Shown: positions 1 through 32,850 of the stretch, piece by piece
Layout of the letters: every line of letters starts with the position of its first letter
How positions within the stretch are numbered: the stretch's first letter is position 1
Virus record (IMG/VR): IMGVR_UViG_3300025711_000261
Location: 1 to 32,850 of that record
DNA length: 32,850 nucleotides
Origin: a virus
Direction: 5' to 3' (one strand)
Notes under the pieces: generated by a model
Seen by the model: the letters and a program-made list of their open reading frames with translations, nothing else
What the model was told of the DNA's origin: nothing
The model's database searches: none
Made by a program: the position numbers and the translations under genes

Positions 1-471
1 ATGAAAACTCACGGGGATCTGTTCGACAAACACCTCCTTCCAGATCTTGACGATCAGACTGCCTTACTCAAAGCGCATCTTTTGATTGAAGAGATGCTCA
101 GAGACTTTTGCTACAAATCAGTGCGCTCACCCGAACACCTCCGTAAAGCCCGCCTTAACTTCACACAAGTCACCAAGCTCGCGAGATCACTATGTGCCTT
201 TGACTCTGCACAGCTCGGTCATGTGTGGGGGATGGTAAAGCTGGTGAACGACCTAAGGAATTTCATGGCTCATGAACTTGAGCCTGACGTAATCAAGTTC
301 GAAACGTGTCGGGACTCATTGATCAAGTCTTCTGGACTCAAACAGACTGAAAGTGATGGCTCACCGGTGAAACGTCTGGCTCCCAGCTTGAGCTACCTCT
401 GCGGAGCGATGTCCGCGATGCTACAGGTCTCGTTAGCGATCCAATTCCCTGACGATTTCGCGACCGACTGA
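1..471 (+). CDS. HEPN-like domain protein, function unknown
   Basis: Protein of 156 residues, mostly predicted helix. It contains RNFMAH at residues 86-91, which fits the R-x4-6-H motif of HEPN domains; an amphipathic helix precedes it (about 20-40). HEPN proteins are often RNases in toxin-antitoxin or defence modules, though some (MltR/DUF4145-like) have no known nuclease role. No nucleotidyltransferase partner is visible downstream, and anything upstream lies outside the window. The ATG is at base 1, so the true start could be further left. Base composition is less GC-rich than the phage late genes, which suggests accessory DNA. The family call rests on one motif plus the helical pattern; a catalytic role is inference. 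Confidence 0.55.
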   Translation: MKTHGDLFDKHLLPDLDDQTALLKAHLLIEEMLRDFCYKSVRSPEHLRKARLNFTQVTKLARSLCAFDSAQLGHVWGMVKLVNDLRNFMAHELEPDVIKFETCRDSLIKSSGLKQTESDGSPVKRLAPSLSYLCGAMSAMLQVSLAIQFPDDFATD

Positions 472-553
472 ACGGAACAGACGCAAAGAGTCAGCACAGT
501 TGAGCCGACCTCCTACAGGTGCCGATCCTAAAATCCGCCGGGGTCCGAAAAAA

Positions 554-770
554 TAGTAATATTAGTAATATCCACTCTGAAAAACGGCCACAGCCCTTGT
601 CTATCAAGGCTTCCAGCGGTTTGGGGGAGGGCGATATTTAAGCGATAGGAAGGCGATAGTATTACCTTTCTTAGAAGCTATATTTCTATTCCTTAAAACC
701 CAATGAATCCGGGGGTTTGACAGAAATATTACTTTTCATATCGCTTCATATTACCTTCCCTTGTAATACC
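554..770. repeat. Iteron-like cluster of short repeats in AT-rich DNA
   Basis: Seen directly: a perfect tandem 9-mer TAGTAATAT at 554-562 and 563-571; three GCGATA copies starting at 631, 642 and 653, exactly 11 bp apart; three direct copies of TATTACYTTYC at 660-670, 727-737 and 749-759; and GTAATACC in the opposite sense at 763-770. Inverse TATCGC copies occur near 740 and 825. One-helical-turn spacing suggests cooperative binding by a protein on one DNA face, as at replication origins, partition sites or operators. The binding protein is unknown. Confidence 0.5.
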
Positions 771-1406
771 AAAAGCCCAGTAAAACCGTGGTCTCCAGAC
801 CCATTACCACTCCCGTATAGCTGATATCGCTCTTTTCGAAACGACCACCCCTCACTTAAGAATCAATCTCAATAGAACGACGTTTTTTCAGGGGCCCTAA
901 TCGGTTGCACAAAGTGAAAATTGATCGTCGATCGTGTTCAGTTCTGTGAAATCCATCAAACACGCCTCAACCCCCCTCAGTCGTGGCCTGCAGGGAATTC
1001 AGCCTGCCCCCGCCTCCAGCCAATCTCCGCCTCAAAAAGATCGTGCGCGTTTTTGAAAAAACACATAAACCCACCTTTTAAAACGTTTTTGCCCAATGAA
1101 ACCGGGGACTCCACCGATACCCTGTCCGTGACCAACCTGAGCGCTCCTGTGCAATCGCGCTGCATTTCCCTTCAAAACTTTGCACTTTGTGAAATGGCCG
1201 ATCCCCTGCAGAGCCCCACGGCCCGCCTGGGCTAGAGGTTCGTTTGCACTACATCCGGACTTGCACAAAAAAAGGACACAAAGCCCGTCGGCGGGAGGGG
1301 GATAAGTGCTTTTTCTCCCAGTTTTTTCTTGCTCACGCGGATTTCGAGATTGCCGCCCGGTCGGCACTTCGTCGGATCAGCGCCCAGCCAAACACACACG
1401 GCAATA

Positions 1407-1426
1407 TACTGTACTCATATACAGTA
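1407..1426. promoter_or_regulatory. LexA (SOS) box
   Basis: TACTGTACTCATATACAGTA is a near-ideal LexA site (CTGT-N8-ACAG with TA on both flanks). It ends 27 bp before the ATG at 1454, which suits repression of the promoter driving the two following genes. Induction by DNA damage is therefore expected. Confidence 0.9.
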
Positions 1427-1453
1427 CATTGATGAACCAGTAGGGCCAACGCG

Positions 1454-1696
1454 ATGACGAGCGCAAGTGACTTCACACAGAGCAGTACGACCGCCTTTTG
1501 GCGAGAGCTGCTGCGAGATGAGGCTGCATTGCTGCGCCACCCAGGGGCACACCATAAAAAGCTACTTGACGCGGCACACGCACTGCATAGGGCTCAGCTG
1601 ATTGATAGTGATGATCTGGCCGATCTACTTGAGCAAGCGGATAGTGCACTGGAGTATGCCGTGGAGGCGCTTCTGGATGAACCAGGCGACCACTAG
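1454..1696 (+). CDS. SOS-regulated small protein, first gene of LexA operon
   Basis: Protein of 80 residues, acidic and helix-rich with many Ala and Leu; no domain recognised. It starts 27 bp after the LexA box, with only a weak ribosome binding site (GTAGGG, somewhat distant). The next gene follows 12 bp downstream and both end before a strong terminator, so the pair forms a short SOS operon. By position (beyond the tail end of the late operon) it resembles the LexA-controlled tum-orf97 operon of coliphage 186, whose Tum protein inactivates the CI repressor. No sequence similarity to Tum was established. The SOS link is well supported; an antirepressor role is inference. Confidence 0.7.
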   Translation: MTSASDFTQSSTTAFWRELLRDEAALLRHPGAHHKKLLDAAHALHRAQLIDSDDLADLLEQADSALEYAVEALLDEPGDH

Positions 1697-1708
1697 GGGG
1701 GAATTATC

Positions 1709-2005
1709 ATGCACATGCTAGTGACCCCGATGCGCTGCAAGGGCGTGGCTTTGGACCCACAAGAAAGGAGGCGTTATCCGGCGATCAGGGGTGACGTACT
1801 TGTAGCATCCGCTACAAGCAACGAGCTTGGCCGAAGCTCAAATGTAGCGCGGGTATCGAAGGGGATGCCGTTGGAACCTGATCCACTGCCTCGGTTGCTC
1901 GATGCGAATTTATCCGGAATGGCCCCGAACGGTTTCGTGCTGAGCGGCATTGAGTACGTCGACGGATGCGCTTATGCGCAGTCCTGGTGGTGCCGTCTCG
2001 CTTAA
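1709..2005 (+). CDS. Second gene of the SOS operon, unknown function
   Basis: Protein of 98 residues with a strong ribosome binding site (GGGGGGA about 7 nt before ATG). No domain recognised. The N-terminal third is basic and contains a short RRRYP motif; the C-terminus ends in an aromatic stretch with a WWCR motif. It follows the 80-residue gene closely and is almost certainly co-transcribed under LexA control. A bidirectional terminator lies 18 bp after its stop. Candidate roles are antirepressor partner or another SOS-induced prophage function, but nothing in the protein itself shows which. Confidence 0.65.
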   Translation: MHMLVTPMRCKGVALDPQERRRYPAIRGDVLVASATSNELGRSSNVARVSKGMPLEPDPLPRLLDANLSGMAPNGFVLSGIEYVDGCAYAQSWWCRLA

Positions 2006-2022
2006 TAGCTCAGGGCAAAAGA

Positions 2023-2050
2023 AAACAGAGGCCGAAGCCTCTGTTTTTTT
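2023..2050. terminator. Bidirectional rho-independent terminator
   Basis: Perfect 8-bp stem ACAGAGGC (2025-2032) / GCCTCTGT (2037-2044) with a CGAA loop, followed by a seven-T run on the plus strand and preceded by an A-rich run (AAAAGAAAA) that gives a U-rich tail on the minus strand. It closes the SOS operon from the left and the 33-codon minus-strand gene from the right. Confidence 0.9.
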
Positions 2051-2056
2051 GTTGCC

Positions 2057-2158
2057 TTACACCTGCTGAAAGATTTTGAATAAGCGGAAAGCCCAGTAGG
2101 CCGTCTGCAAAATCCGAATCACTTCTTCAGGGAGGTAGCGCGCAATGAAATTTTTCAT
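2057..2158 (-). CDS. Candidate 33-residue small protein
   Basis: A short ORF of 34 codons including stop, encoding an amphipathic, aromatic-rich helix (begins MKNFIARYLPEEV, ends RLFKIFQQV). GGAG lies about 9 nt upstream of the ATG, and the ORF ends 7 bp before the bidirectional terminator, so it has the punctuation of a real gene. The start codon lies inside a perfect 8-bp hairpin (2143-2160), and an 8-bp segment of the coding sequence is complementary to the leader (2133-2140 with 2213-2220). Small hydrophobic peptides with sequestered starts are typical of type I toxins, but no antisense RNA is proven. Could also be a leader peptide. Confidence 0.55.
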   Translation of the reverse strand: MKNFIARYLPEEVIRILQTAYWAFRLFKIFQQV

Positions 2159-2220
2159 TGAATATACTCCGCTGCTTAGTAGGCCACACCATTAGTGAGT
2201 GTGGTTCTTCCACGCTACCT
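2133..2220 (-). other. Structured mRNA leader/start region of the 33-codon gene
   Basis: Three nested stems are seen: AGGTAGCG (2220 to 2213) with CGCTACCT (2140 to 2133), closing the domain; CCACAC with GTGTGG (2184-2189 and 2199-2204), extended by a U-G wobble only in minus-strand RNA; and CAATGAAA with TTTCATTG (2143-2150 and 2153-2160), which contains the start codon. Together these would hide the translation start. Folding was done by eye. Confidence 0.5.
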
Positions 2221-2262
2221 GGCAATACCCGGCAGACTCCTATTCAACTAATCAACGAATAC

Positions 2263-2310
2263 CGTTAATTACGGACAATACATTCGAGTATTCGAACACC
2301 GTAACTAACG
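2263..2310 (-). other. 48-bp nested inverted repeat, probable RNA stem
   Basis: Outer arms CGTTAATTACGG (2263-2274) and CCGTAACTAACG (2299-2310) pair at 11 of 12 positions in DNA, and at 12 of 12 in minus-strand RNA, where the odd pair becomes G-U. Inner arms TTCGA/TCGAA (2283-2287, 2292-2296) form a second stem. The wobble bias suggests a minus-strand transcript, the same strand as the 33-codon gene downstream. A protein-binding operator is the alternative. Confidence 0.45.
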
Positions 2311-2490
2311 ACAGTTGAAAAGTGATCACGCTTGACGGAGTCGGCACAGAGCAATAGTCTTCGGACTGTGAGATACAAAGATTTGCTTCAGTAGCGCTTC
2401 TGGGGAGAATCCTAACACAGGATTCAAGCTAGGGAAGTAGCTGAAGATGCTCCATCCGGGCCCGCCATTGTGCGGGCCTACTCATTTCTG

Positions 2491-2676
2491 ATGGCCGGCC
2501 ACCTTAGCGTTTTGCAGATATCTCGCTAAGTACCGGGGTTTCAGGGTGAAGCTTGATCAAATATGCTTAGCGCTTGCTAAACGCTTACTGAAACATCCTG
2601 AAACATTTCTCTCGACGAAACTAAGATGGCCGGCCGAAGCATATAACTCGCCGGCCATAACTTATGATGGCCGGCC
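2491..2676. repeat. ATGGCCGGCC repeats
   Basis: Identical ATGGCCGGCC at 2491-2500, 2626-2635 and 2667-2676, plus an inverted 9-bp copy GCCGGCCAT at 2650-2658. The inverted copy can form a 9-bp stem with either neighbour (loops of 15 or 8 nt). All lie in non-coding DNA just past the last late gene, so a transcription terminator, an mRNA 3'-end stabiliser or a protein-binding array are possible. Confidence 0.55.
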
Positions 2677-2748
2677 GACTTACATGTCGTCTTTAAACGA
2701 CAAGTCAATACCATCAAACTGCTGTCAAACTTAAATCTGGCAACTGGT

Positions 2749-28829: not shown

Positions 28830-29057
28830 ATGATGGGGGCCGTCGTGAGTAAGCTGGATCGTTTCATGCGGGAGAAGGAAGTGTTGGGCATTACTTCTTT
28901 CTCACGAACCACTCTCTGGCGGGAAATCAAACGGGGGAATTTCCCCAAGTCGGTGGTGATTTCGGCGGGCCGGGTTGGCTGGCGAGAATCTGCGATCGAG
29001 GCCTGGCAGAACAATCCCGAAAATTGGCAGATCAGTGCCAAAACCGAAGCCGCGTAA
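28830..29057 (+). CDS. AlpA-family regulator / excisionase-like
   Basis: Protein of 75 residues (72 or fewer if the GTG at 28845, with GGGGG nearby, is used). SFSRTTLWREIKRGNFPKSV is the winged-helix recognition part of the AlpA family, and GRVGWRESAIEAW closes the domain. AlpA-type proteins activate integrase genes or act as excision directionality factors; its place next to int supports either. The stop codon TAA lies in the loop of a perfect hairpin (29046-29065) that is part of a direct repeat. Confidence 0.82.
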   Translation: MMGAVVSKLDRFMREKEVLGITSFSRTTLWREIKRGNFPKSVVISAGRVGWRESAIEAWQNNPENWQISAKTEAA

Positions 29058-29072
29058 GCGGCTTCATCTATT
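29046..29072. repeat. 27-bp direct repeat, copy 1 (end of alpA, hairpin)
   Basis: Matches 30075-30101 at 23 of 27 positions (by eye); the shared core is GTAAGCGGCTTCA. In this copy the hairpin GAAGCCGC-GTAA-GCGGCTTC contains the alpA stop codon. The pair bounds the AbiTii gene. Confidence 0.75.
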
Positions 29073-29130
29073 TGTACCAATCCAACTGCGGCTACTATGT
29101 AGATCTTCTCGGTCTATGCAGGTTTCAGCG

Positions 29131-30042
29131 ATGTCGCTCATTCAAGATATTCAGGCCGCAGCCATCTCCCAGTCTACGGATGTCGCTACGTTGTTGCGGA
29201 TGTGTAAGTTGCTTGCGGCTCGCATTTCCTACCCACAACTCAATGAATGGGCGAACAAAGAACTCAATGGGTATCCCGACGTTAAGTCACTACCAGACTA
29301 TCGAGAGTTGCGTGTCCATTCCTATGGAACATTCCATGGAGGGTTTAGACAAGCCAACCGCCTGCAGATACCCGTGTCGATACTCCCTGAAAATCTACAA
29401 GAGCAGTACAGGCATGCTTACTTGGGGGCAAGTATCAGCGTCTATGCCGAGCTACTGAGAGGAGATACAACTGGCAGAATTGAAGAGCCATGGCCGGTAG
29501 AGCTGGCAGTACATTGGGCGTCTAAGGTCACAAAAGACATGCAGTGCGTAGCCGCGTGGAAAGAGATTCCCATCGGCGCGGTGGTTCGACTTTTGGACTC
29601 CGTCAAAACGCGAATTCTTGATTACGCAATTGATTTAGAACGAGAAGCTCCTAATGCTGGAGAAACACCAATTGGTAGCCAACCTCCTTTGAGTAGCGAA
29701 AAAATGACAAAAATATTTAACAACAACATTTATGGCAGCGTTGGCAACATTTCTAATGAAGGTGAAAACTTCACGCAAAACGCGTCTATTCAGCTTGGAA
29801 ATTGGGACTCGCTGACGAAGCAGTTGACTTCACTTGGTCTGAATCCGACTGATTTTGAAGATATGCAAGGTGAACTTGACGAAGCCATTGCGACGAAGGA
29901 CGAGAAGGAAAAATCAGCAAAAGCCAGTTCTTGGATTAGTCGATTAACAATGAAAGCGGTTGAAGGTGCGACGGGGGTGGGCATAGAGGCTGCCGCTGCT
30001 GGCGTAGCAAAGGCAATCGGAGCCTACGTCGGCCTGTCCTGA
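29131..30042 (+). CDS. AbiTii-domain abortive infection protein
   Basis: Protein of 303 residues, start chosen at the ATG at 29131, where the conserved domain begins (MSLIQDIQAAAIS). The N-terminal AbiTii domain (about 2-190) shows ATLLRMCKLLAARI, EWANKELNGYP and a following LPDYRELRV. It is followed by NNIYGSVGNI (about 195-215) and the usual C-terminal architecture: a WDSLTKQLTSLGL segment and a Gly/Ala-rich hydrophobic end (GATGVGIEAAAAGVAKAIGAYVGL) that may act on membranes. AbiTii proteins are linked to abortive infection against phages; the mechanism is unknown. It is clearly more AT-rich than the surrounding phage genes, so cargo (a moron) is likely. Confidence 0.83.
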   Translation: MSLIQDIQAAAISQSTDVATLLRMCKLLAARISYPQLNEWANKELNGYPDVKSLPDYRELRVHSYGTFHGGFRQANRLQIPVSILPENLQEQYRHAYLGASISVYAELLRGDTTGRIEEPWPVELAVHWASKVTKDMQCVAAWKEIPIGAVVRLLDSVKTRILDYAIDLEREAPNAGETPIGSQPPLSSEKMTKIFNNNIYGSVGNISNEGENFTQNASIQLGNWDSLTKQLTSLGLNPTDFEDMQGELDEAIATKDEKEKSAKASSWISRLTMKAVEGATGVGIEAAAAGVAKAIGAYVGLS

Positions 30043-30074
30043 GTATGATCCGAGCTACCTTTCCGATCTGCAGT

Positions 30075-30101
30075 GAGGCCGTGTAAGCGGCTTCACTTAT
30101 T
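30075..30101. repeat. 27-bp direct repeat, copy 2 (end of int)
   Basis: Second copy of the repeat at 29046-29072; its last bases include the integrase stop codon (30097-30099). Four mismatches. The hairpin is less perfect here. Confidence 0.75.
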
Positions 30102-31308
30102 CCAGCTTGGCCGCTATCACGTTCTTTTGTAACCAGGTCGCCCAGCGCTGAAGCCCCGTTTTCTTTTCATCAAAATAGTCATAGCGGTCATAGTGCTTCG
30201 AGGCCACATCACCGAACGCATGGCCCTGGATACGGTCTTTCAACTCTTTGCTAATTTTTGCAACGCCCATCAATGTTTTGCAGGTGCGCCTGATGTCTCT
30301 CAGGGTAAACGGACCATTGAACTTGTCAGAGTGTCGACCGTAGAGCTTGGTGACAGCGCGTGACAGTGAGTTGGCATGTAGTGCGCTGCCCTCGACTTTC
30401 CCTTCAAACGGATAGGAACTGGCTGCACTAATTTCGTCCATTGCCTTCAGGCTCTCGCGCATCAGCTTGTTATAGGGCACAACATGCAGGGAGCGCTCGC
30501 CCTCGGCGCCCTTTCCTTTTTTGTTACGGATGATCAGGTGGTCTTTCAGGTACTGCCGGCGTTCGGTCGCCAAAAGTTGCTCGGGCCGCTGCCCACCGGA
30601 CGCAATCAGAAACTTGATCAGCTCCGCTGTGACCACACTAAGTTGTTCGGGCAGCAACTGCCACAAACGGGCCAGTTCCTCGGGCGACAATGCACGATCA
30701 CCAGGTTGCTCCCAATCAGCCTGCACTGGAACGCTGGCCACAGGGTTGCTCTTGAGCCCGAACTTCAGATCTGTTTTCTGGTAACTGCGAGGGTTGAATT
30801 CCTGTTCCAGGCCCATCTGGAAGGCTGCATGCAACTGCGAGCGGAGGCGGTTGCAGTAGGTCGTAATCCCGTCGCCAATCATCTTTGAAATGATGTCGCG
30901 GATCTCACCTGGGCCGATCAGCGAGACGGGCCGCGTGACCAGGTTGGGAAATGGCTCGGAAACATAGTGCTTGAACGACCACTTCACATCGTCAGCGGAA
31001 GCTGCGCCCTCGCCGGCCAACTTGGTCGTGTATGCGTCCAGTAGGTTCTGGAACGTGCCGGCCGATACCGCAATTTCCTTCTCTACGCGGCAGAGATCGC
31101 GAGCGGCGGCTAAGCCGAGCGTTGGCCAGGTACCAAGTTTACTTTTGGGCTTGGCCCCATTCACCCGCCGCTGAAAATAGAACTCCTTTGTCCCGTTCGG
31201 GCGGACCCTCAAAATCAACACGCCTTCGCCTCGGGCGCTGCGGCCGTCCGAGACCGTGTATTCCTTTTCCGCAGGTTTCATTGCCTTGATTTGTTTCTCT
31301 GTGAGCAT
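30097..31308 (-). CDS. int: Tyrosine recombinase integrase (P4-like)
   Basis: Site-specific recombinase of 403 residues. N-terminal arm-binding domain (1-80, short DUF4102-like, SDGRSARGEGVLILRVRPNG), core-binding domain (about 85-180), catalytic domain (about 205-390) with Arg241 (GGQRPEQ), a Lys in KKGKG (263-267), His275, Arg340 (RDIRRT; Arg replaces His at 337), His363 (GHAFGDVA) and nucleophile Tyr373 (KHYDRYDY). Start ATG at 31308 has no ribosome binding site; instead two 12-bp repeats lie directly upstream. Reads away from the attachment region. Convergent with alpA/AbiTii. Confidence 0.92.
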   Translation of the reverse strand: MLTEKQIKAMKPAEKEYTVSDGRSARGEGVLILRVRPNGTKEFYFQRRVNGAKPKSKLGTWPTLGLAAARDLCRVEKEIAVSAGTFQNLLDAYTTKLAGEGAASADDVKWSFKHYVSEPFPNLVTRPVSLIGPGEIRDIISKMIGDGITTYCNRLRSQLHAAFQMGLEQEFNPRSYQKTDLKFGLKSNPVASVPVQADWEQPGDRALSPEELARLWQLLPEQLSVVTAELIKFLIASGGQRPEQLLATERRQYLKDHLIIRNKKGKGAEGERSLHVVPYNKLMRESLKAMDEISAASSYPFEGKVEGSALHANSLSRAVTKLYGRHSDKFNGPFTLRDIRRTCKTLMGVAKISKELKDRIQGHAFGDVASKHYDRYDYFDEKKTGLQRWATWLQKNVIAAKLE

Positions 31309-31528: not shown

Positions 31529-31602
31529 GCGGGTATAGTTGAATGGTACAACTATTGCTTCCCAAGCAATCGGTGAGGGTTCGATTCCCTCTACCCGCTC
31601 CA
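31529..31602 (+). tRNA. tRNA-Gly(CCC)
   Basis: 74 nt, full cloverleaf by eye: acceptor GCGGGTA/TACCCGC, anticodon stem ATTGC/GCAAT around loop TTCCCAA (anticodon CCC), T-loop GGTTCGATTCC, encoded CCA end. The probable integration target or its neighbour. Confidence 0.95.
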
Positions 31603-31914: not shown

Positions 31915-32115
31915 ATGGCAAGCCCTCCCCCTCAAAAAACACCTGGACATCGACAGAGCTCCAAACGATCACCAGCATCTATTCCAACGTTTAGTCGTTT
32001 TCAACTCTCAGTCGCGCATCCGACCATGATCAAGATCGGGCTCCTAACCACGCTCACGCTCACGTTGGCGGTAGCGCTTTACAAACGTGGATTCGATCAA
32101 TTCTTCAATTTTTAG
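31915..32115 (+). CDS. Small membrane protein, unknown function
   Basis: Protein of 66 residues starting at the ATG at 31915 with GGGAG about 8 nt upstream. Basic, Ser/Pro-rich N-terminal half (KTPGHRQSSKRSPAS), then one hydrophobic segment (about 39-55, IKIGLLTTLTLTLAVAL) and an aromatic end (GFDQFFNF). No family recognised. Its last 72 bp overlap the 3' end of the convergent gene on the minus strand, which is unusual; one of the two ends may be an annotation artefact. Confidence 0.5.
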   Translation: MASPPPQKTPGHRQSSKRSPASIPTFSRFQLSVAHPTMIKIGLLTTLTLTLAVALYKRGFDQFFNF

Positions 32116-32850
32116 CCCAAGCCCGCAGTTTACCAACGAAGCCATAGAACTATCGGTCAGCGAAAAATCGTTGGGAATAAGGCCGATATTCTCCTCCCTG
32201 TTCTTATTAAGTTCCTCTTCAAACGCTTTCAAGAAGTCAGCCAAGCCAGGGCGGCGAGCTTCAGTTGCTGCACTTGCAGCGGAGTCACTTGAGACTGTTG
32301 CTGCATTGGCTGCATTCACACCAATCTGCGCCACCACCTTAGTTATGGACGGCCAGTATTTGAGATCATATTGATAGGTCAAGTTATCCAACTTCTTCTT
32401 CAGGTAAGACCTGAAAAGCCCATTATCCTCAGAAGCATCTTCAACGACATCCATAATGTGGTAGTAGGTATCACTACTAAAACTGGACATCTCTTTAACC
32501 TCGGTGCGCCGCGACAGCAACTCCGAAAGCAGCTCTGAAACTTTTGCTATTCGCGCATTCAATTCAGTGAGCCTCTCCCTATCCTCACGAGCTTCTTTGA
32601 TCTTTCCTGGATTCCAGGAGTACACCGTGGCGGTGAAAACATCGAAGAATGACTTCAGCGCCCTGGGTTGCTCAGCCAGCGCGGCATGCAGCTCGACGTA
32701 GGCATCAGCAAGCTCAGTGGTGCGTCCCAGCAGACCCTCGATGATTGGATTGATACTGCGCCAGGTACCGTGCTCCTCGTTATATTTGAAGTCTTCACGC
32801 AATATGTTTTCACACACCTCGATTGCAGTGGTACGAACTTTAATATCCAT
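32044..32850 (-). CDS. Coiled-coil protein of unknown function
   Basis: At least 268 residues; the ATG is on the last base of the window, so the true start may lie outside. Charged and helical, with a likely coiled coil at about 82-115 (KEAREDRERLTELNARIAKVSELLSELL split over heptads), an Ala/Ser-rich stretch at about 178-195, and an Arg/Glu-rich end (YRQRERERG). No known domain recognised. Composition differs from the phage genes. Position next to a tRNA-Gly suggests accessory DNA, but function cannot be said. Confidence 0.6.
   Translation of the reverse strand: MDIKVRTTAIEVCENILREDFKYNEEHGTWRSINPIIEGLLGRTTELADAYVELHAALAEQPRALKSFFDVFTATVYSWNPGKIKEAREDRERLTELNARIAKVSELLSELLSRRTEVKEMSSFSSDTYYHIMDVVEDASEDNGLFRSYLKKKLDNLTYQYDLKYWPSITKVVAQIGVNAANAATVSSDSAASAATEARRPGLADFLKAFEEELNKNREENIGLIPNDFSLTDSSMASLVNCGLGLKIEELIESTFVKRYRQRERERG

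Follow-up and report, generated by a model that had tools for sequence, protein, structure and literature searches.

Variable cargo, including many defence genes, at the convergent alpA/int junction of Pseudomonas phages

We found that different genes, many of them of defence type, can occupy the junction at which an alpA-type gene and an integrase gene (int) converge. In the stretch of DNA that we analysed (hereafter the window, a 32,850-bp IMG/VR virus record taken at its full length), this junction holds an AbiTii-family gene between two copies of a short repeat. We think it likely that the junction acts as a cargo slot and that the state of the window arose through staggered recombination between related phages or prophages. 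In most lineages, alpA and int appear to share one predicted hairpin terminator, which is built partly from the last codons of alpA. Loci that were compared with the window are given L numbers.

The right end of the window carries alpA, the AbiTii-family gene, int and a tRNA-Gly(CCC) gene, in this order. The family matched by the alpA product, phrog_2790, is that of an excisionase and transcriptional regulator, and a match of int to PF22022 (3.4e-04) lies under that family's cut-off. The features are as follows:

28830-29057, + strand: alpA-type excisionase/regulator gene (PF05930, E 1.5e-13; phrog_2790, E 3.1e-15)
29046-29072, no strand: repeat copy 1, the putative alpA-side terminator hairpin (29046-29065) followed by AT and by CTA in the register of the int stop (from repeat and fold)
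29131-30042, + strand: AbiTii-family cargo gene, 303 amino acids (PF18864, E 1.6e-43; PADLOC AbiTii, 1.9e-40)
30075-30101, no strand: repeat copy 2, the putative int-side terminator hairpin (30075-30094) running into the int stop (from repeat and fold)
30097-31308, - strand: integrase of the phage tyrosine-recombinase kind (PF13356, 1.4e-09; phrog_1 integrase, 9.7e-32)
31529-31602, + strand: tRNA-Gly(CCC) gene adjoining int (from context; at most a putative attachment site)

A second IMG/VR record (L002) is the same as the window over 8,751 identical bases. It may represent the same or a near-identical genome, so it argues only weakly against an assembly artefact. The Pseudomonas phage UFJF_PfPro (L049), annotated as a member of the Peduoviridae, matches window positions 2700-25400 (22.7 kb) over 85% with 81% identity. 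The structural genes are common to both, and the annotated integrase of UFJF_PfPro lies on the opposite strand; judging from this comparison, the integration module looks to have been exchanged as one unit. Both ends of the window (1-2700 and 32044-32850) are lower in G+C, and for the end open reading frames that were tried (1-471, 921-1235, 1454-1696, 1709-2005 and 32044-32850) no Pfam family was found. The window has its tRNA-Gly(CCC) gene near int in common with L031 (5797-5870), but no tRNA was found in 11 other loci scanned alongside, some of which have little sequence on that side.

A preliminary description of this DNA had reported 27-bp direct repeats that bracket the AbiTii gene between convergent alpA and int, the first copy holding the alpA stop and a hairpin and the second the int stop, and the sequence bears out each of these points. 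The repeats (29046-29072 and 30075-30101) are identical at 23 of 27 positions. With up to three mismatches allowed, their 20-nt hairpin core occurs nowhere in the 32,850-bp window apart from the two repeat copies, a third match being copy 1 on the opposite strand, and the shuffled window gave 0 core matches in 100 shuffles. Copy 1 consists of the alpA end GAA GCC GCG TAA, then GCGGCTTC, and forms a perfect 8-bp stem (-16.1 kcal/mol on the + strand, -15.2 on the - strand), in which these last alpA codons make up the 5' arm and the loop, the loop holding the alpA stop (TAA, 29055-29057). Copy 2 folds with an 11-bp stem, at -18.5 kcal/mol on the + strand, which is the AbiTii strand, versus -13.0 on the - strand, and holds the int stop (TTA at 30097-30099). 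The other gene's stop can also be traced in each copy, as CTA (29068-29070) in the register of the int stop in copy 1 and as GAG GCC GTG TAA (30075-30086) in the register of the alpA end in copy 2, which is the look that two descendants of one junction should have. The T-tracts at both putative terminator hairpins are weak. A consensus scan called copy 1 terminator-like, though just on the + strand, and did not call copy 2 on either strand, and the sites that it calls terminator-like show no excess as a class (4 in the window against a shuffle mean of 3.9). No promoter for the window cargo was recognised by consensus scan, and a search of the window for inverted repeats gave two pairs (12-13 nt), neither at the cargo ends.

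The AbiTii protein scored 149.6 bits against PF18864, for which the curated cut-off is 27.6, and conservation with L008 indicates that its start is likely the ATG at 29131. The gene had been described as AT-rich; its G+C content is indeed lower than that of its neighbours, although only mildly so (48.6%, versus 55.3% for alpA and 55.5% for int). The Lactococcus AbiT system consists of two genes, abiTi and abiTii, and we rejected filing the cargo as this system because only one cargo gene is listed (open reading frames of about 200 nt or more). The AbiTii domain covers the N-terminal ~190 amino acids, over which the protein is like the AbiTii domain proteins (PF18864) treated in the HEPN superfamily paper PMC3710099. 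It differs from them in its C-terminal ~110 amino acids, which match phrog_16090 only (function unassigned); that paper describes the Lactococcus AbiTii as having no HEPN domain and some relatives as fused to one, and Pfam gave no HEPN match in the window protein. By analogy with its family, the gene is probably an anti-phage gene that serves the lysogen. A single-sequence AlphaFold2 model (mean pLDDT 48, pTM 0.33) was too poor for a fold search.

Relatives of the AbiTii protein include those of L008 (82% identical) and L135 (61%). The 61% relative (locus L136) lies outside any alpA-int site, in a genome with no alpA or int of the alpA-int module kind within the 13.5 kb examined, so that the AbiTii gene occurs also away from this junction. 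A scan of viral contigs for AbiTii returned a single record, the L002 contig, and was insensitive, since it missed L008. There was no match in phage records, 90 plasmid records matched (all below 60% identity), and 1 of 398 Pseudomonas-group genomes had a match at E<=1e-40, away from an alpA-int site.

Relatives of the junction were collected through int, from 20 viral loci, 12 loci from species genomes and 12 of 398 group genomes. An int profile search of viral contigs kept the best 80 of 132 relatives, and PG1 and Presto alone were counted from four int matches in phage records. We required alpA and int to be both present and convergent, which gave 99 sites after removal of repeats (L131, the same as L025; L132, the same as L071; L120, the same as L117; and duplicate copies of the same contigs). 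L032 and L033, in which no alpA was found, were left out, and L038, L042, L044 and L045 were too short and were replaced by L131-L134.

In this sample, which includes the window and the best 80 of 132 viral loci, 69 of the 99 sites are empty and 30 are filled; the 99 sites represent 91 distinct int sequences (61 empty, 30 filled). The stop codons of alpA and int are 1-21 nt apart in all 69 empty sites, and the filled sites have cargo intervals of 515 to 3,368 nt (n = 30; 536 nt in L017). Empty sites are spread across the int tree, and can also be found in contigs with the window's upstream genes (L011, L012 and L024), in phage PG1 and in the 79-kb phage Presto. At least 19 changes between empty and filled are needed on this tree, which was obtained by a quick search, is unrooted, has 35 of 86 inner branches with support below 80, and does not distinguish gain from loss. 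Sites with very similar int differ in cargo, and AbiTii is present in only two of the 99 sites (window/L002 and L008).

The flanking core genes are therefore constant while the cargo is absent or different among close relatives, and the earlier proposal that the site is a cargo-exchange hotspot agrees with the 69/30 split, the repeated changes and the varied cargo. The cargo-free relatives with a single repeat copy that this proposal predicted do exist. The two observations named beforehand as contrary to it were not made: the repeat is not wholly missing from cargo-free relatives, as 48 of 69 have the hairpin, and AbiTii is not fixed. The empty state is probably ancestral (on an unrooted tree), and in this commonest arrangement the convergent stops lie a few bases apart, with one common putative hairpin terminator in most lineages. 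Comparison of the sites shows that the slot has gained and lost defence and other genes many times. Such a slot would tolerate foreign DNA because only two gene ends and a terminator need survive.

We defined a clear hairpin as a stem across the alpA/int junction that has 6 bp or more, of which 4 or more are G-C pairs. A G+C-rich hairpin of this kind spans the junction in 48 of the 69 empty sites. It was missing in the other 21 (L020, the five L100-type sites and 15 sites from a class with int about 63-64% identical), so the common terminator is not universal. Across all 43 distinct 20-mers, pairing holds in 238 of 344 cells, compared with a shuffle mean of 212.4, and there are 33 two-sided Watson-Crick changes (shuffle mean 14.1), neither of which was reached in any shuffle (0 of 2000); for the empty sites alone, 135 of 192 cells pair (shuffle 120.1) and there are 20 two-sided changes versus 8.2, kinship not being removed from any of these figures. 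What lies between the convergent genes is thus a conserved G+C-rich stem-loop with compensatory change, as in a bidirectional terminator, and the suggestion in the preliminary description that alpA and int once met at one common terminator gains support. AlpA often ends in Glu-Ala-Ala and, in view of the compensatory changes in the hairpin, the need for this ending plausibly lies in the hairpin and not in the protein.

An exact-hairpin scan of viral contigs returned 31 stretches, among which 16 loci were taken as lying outside the 99-site set and were left out of the site counts; 3 of these have alpA (L139, L143 and L145) and 13 do not. In nine loci (L137, L142, L144, L148, L150, L156, L159, L163 and L166), the hairpin-at-stop design stands directly before an ATG and apparently ends one same kind of gene, unrelated to alpA, as a recurring gene-end hairpin.

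The cargo scan against Pfam and PADLOC covered 39 of 46 listed open reading frames and the window AbiTii; the cargo of L017 was left out. PADLOC matches at E<=1e-3 were obtained for 12 of the 30 filled sites, weakly for L134 and L122 and by the second gene for L008, and two further sites have a defence-type Pfam domain, namely AbiU2 (L023) and HNH (L071). Defence-type matches thus amount to 14 of 30 filled sites, a plain tally and not an enrichment measure. The other 16 have no PADLOC match and no defence-type Pfam domain among the scanned open reading frames; two of them carry GNAT, one a transposase and one DUF6864, and 12 had no match in either library. The cargo identified is as follows:

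AbiTii: window and L008
SoFic-like Fic: L003
GmrSD/NsnA-like: L006 and L073
ApeA-type HEPN: L007 and L027
AbiU2: L023
Septu PtuA and PtuB: L019
PDC-S31: second gene of L008, and L069
RelA/SpoT-like PDC-S33: L097
HNH: L071
DUF6602 with a weak PD-DExK match: L134
BnzA, weak partial match: L122
GNAT: L016, and L017 by 72% DNA identity only
DUF6864: L018
Transposase gene with a Mu-type transposase C-terminal domain, in the alpA-int interval: L133 (5285-6970)

A search for a second alpA-type hairpin in 33 filled rows (the 30 sites and three repeats) gave 7 matches versus 0.83 expected. We did not find the second hairpins of L069 (at alpA's own end) and L133 (inside the transposase gene) credible. 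A credible second copy is present in 4 of 30 filled sites (the window, L008, L014 and L022), and in L003 the int side is the only one with a copy. Most filled sites show no duplicated terminator. The expectation that relatives would hold different genes between the same repeats is borne out by a minority: there are 29 further filled sites, but few of them have the second copy.

The hairpin adjoins int in the window and in L003, which are nearest neighbours by int, and L003 has no other. L008, L014 and L022 have a stacked structure, with a first gene on the + strand, the hairpin, a second gene on the - strand and then int; in L008 the AbiTii relative is followed by the second hairpin, another gene and int. 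The order in L014 is alpA, cargo, a second alpA with hairpin, a second cargo and int. The second alpA of L014 is nearly whole and 84% identical to the first, with start and stop lost. The first is nearer to the alpA of L065 (89%) than to the second, a distance that may reflect faster drift of the decayed copy rather than another parent. Homology to alpA in the 24 nt before the second hairpin was found in L014 only, and not in the window, L022, L008 or L003; the window has 11 matches to alpA there, compared with a null mean of 12.0. As there is no alpA homology before copy 2, the duplication in the window comprises essentially the hairpin and the int stop.

We measured junction overlap from the ends of left and right homology with the nearest empty site, which could be anchored in 22 of 30 sites (L003, L008, L016, L017, L018, L027, L117 and L122 were set aside for poor anchors). 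The overlaps range from +27 nt in the window to -39 nt and are mostly near zero or negative. Positive values were obtained for the window (27 nt), L133 (20), L019 (9 to 23) and L009 (6). The homology ends nearly meet (0 to -7) in L005, L006, L007, L010, L022, L023 and L130, and 12 to 39 nt are missing in L004, L014, L025, L031, L069, L071, L073, L091, L097 and L134; L092 stands at -9 or +6. For several sites the value varies with the empty site chosen (for example, window, +27, -49 and -39, the last two against more distant sites; L019, +23, +9 and +9; L071, -26, -29 and -29; L092, -9, -9 and +6; L005, -2, -12 and -36), and the estimates are coarse in cases such as the window, for which the nearest empty site reaches only 70-80% identity in int. 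The +27 overlap of the window comes from a single empty site, L030, with whose junction copy 2 agrees at 24 of 27 positions; copy 2 and the int end align with this junction, and homology reaches 21 nt past the int stop.

In a staggered, non-allelic exchange, the left part would have supplied alpA, its terminator and AbiTii, and the right part would have begun immediately ahead of the terminator of the other parent, leaving int with one of its own. The terminator before AbiTii would then stop the alpA transcript and the one behind would be common to AbiTii and int, with selection for intact int, alpA and terminator acting alongside recombination. The preliminary description had allowed for either recombination between related phages or insertion with duplication of the terminator, and the former fits better because the overlap length is not fixed and because L014 has a second alpA. 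Recombination is also favoured by pairs of sites that share a flank and differ in cargo. L010 and L019 are alike over the first 94-99 nt after the alpA stop (88%) and in int (96%), L009 and L025 over the last 107 nt before int (92%) and in int (93%), and in both pairs the cargo is different; these pairs show cargo exchange between otherwise like phages. Within the window, the nearest relative, sought among 16 loci, likewise differs between the upstream genes, alpA and int; relative to L009, the upstream genes are 87% identical, but alpA only 68% and int 73%. As counterpoints, the repeat is short, and the hairpin-at-stop design also ends unrelated phage genes, which would in principle allow convergence to produce a second hairpin. 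Our confidence in the recombination step is slightly lowered because the overlap of the window depends on a single empty relative.

Insertion with duplication would involve a mobile AbiTii cassette that entered a single terminator and duplicated 27 bp in the manner of a transposon, which we regard as unlikely. It would account for two in-register copies with both stop codons traced in each, and L133 shows that a transposase gene can enter the site, with an overlap of about +20. A transposon should, however, leave one fixed value, whereas the overlaps spread from +27 to -39 nt in the 22 of 30 anchored sites. Moreover, the window cargo is AbiTii alone, with no transposase or recombinase family, and the 61% AbiTii relative sits outside an alpA-int site. 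A transposon with target-site duplication was rejected as a classification, there being no fixed repeat length among the anchored sites and no transposase family or terminal inverted repeats in the window cargo.

The two terminators could instead be independent, AbiTii or int having gained its own hairpin and the copies having become alike by convergence. The exact 20-mer pattern does occur at the ends of unrelated phage genes, copy 2 has a longer stem, of 11 bp, and folds more stably on the AbiTii strand, and no alpA sequence is recognisable before copy 2. Convergence is nevertheless improbable, given that copy 2 and the int end are homologous to the whole L030 junction (24/27, continuous into int) and that GAG GCC GTG TAA is kept in the alpA register. 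It is very unlikely that AbiTii between two terminators is ancestral to this int clade, with empty sites formed by deletion between the repeats. AbiTii with a following hairpin is found on two separate branches (window and L008), between which L030 is empty and other cargo occurs, but empty sites extend across the whole tree, some of them in lineages where we saw no relative of AbiTii, and the nearest neighbour L003 has other cargo (Fic) at the same place.

Defence hotspots in prophages have been described before, one of them between cI and integrase in Vibrio phages (PMC9122126), and the alpA/int junction is a new example. It resembles the P2/P4 hotspots of that paper in that one fixed position in temperate phages carries genes that differ from one relative to the next, mostly defence genes in the published case; Septu is among the cargo there and in L019 here. 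What sets it apart is its position at the convergent alpA/int junction of a Pseudomonas module, where a shared hairpin serves as the anchor; the main text of PMC9122126 does not use the words "terminator" or "flank", and it speculates on recombination at cos ends for P2 and P4. The P4-like satellites in PMC8628076 also have a core of alpA and integrase, with variable cargo between core genes. We found no description of the alpA/int junction of Pseudomonas phages as a defence hotspot, which is weak evidence of absence, as the literature searched covered few subscription papers. Phage morons are extra genes with their own promoter and terminator. The AbiTii gene is likewise a single gene between phage genes, with its own terminator and lower G+C, whereas its terminator duplicates the one that belongs to the site, and it has no promoter by consensus scan.

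The discussion of PMC9122126 states that recombination pathways at defence hotspots need further experiments. For the question of how defence genes repeatedly enter the same phage place, the alpA/int junction is an unusually clear example: its empty state can be given to the exact base, the filled states can be aligned to it, and leftover hairpins and lost or duplicated bases record the entry of each cargo. We consider it quite unlikely, if conceivable, that the shared terminator is the exchange site itself, its palindrome promoting strand exchange or template switching and making it a cassette port for different backbones; cargo would then enter beside the hairpin and leave with or without a second one. 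The alpA/int stop junction also provides a simple anchor for finding further candidate defence genes, given the 16 of 30 filled sites in which the scanned cargo gave no defence-type match.

Some details of individual flanks can be added. In L009, L010 and L019, 10-36 nt of the old int 3' end persist past the alpA hairpin and int ends in a new tail, AKLHST instead of AELK: the cargo replaced the last int codons. Positions 58-133 of the L019 interval and 1677-1755 of the L025 interval share a stretch of about 80 nt (74% identical) in inverted orientation, on the left flank in one and the right flank in the other, which we take to be possibly an intergenic repeat of Pseudomonas.
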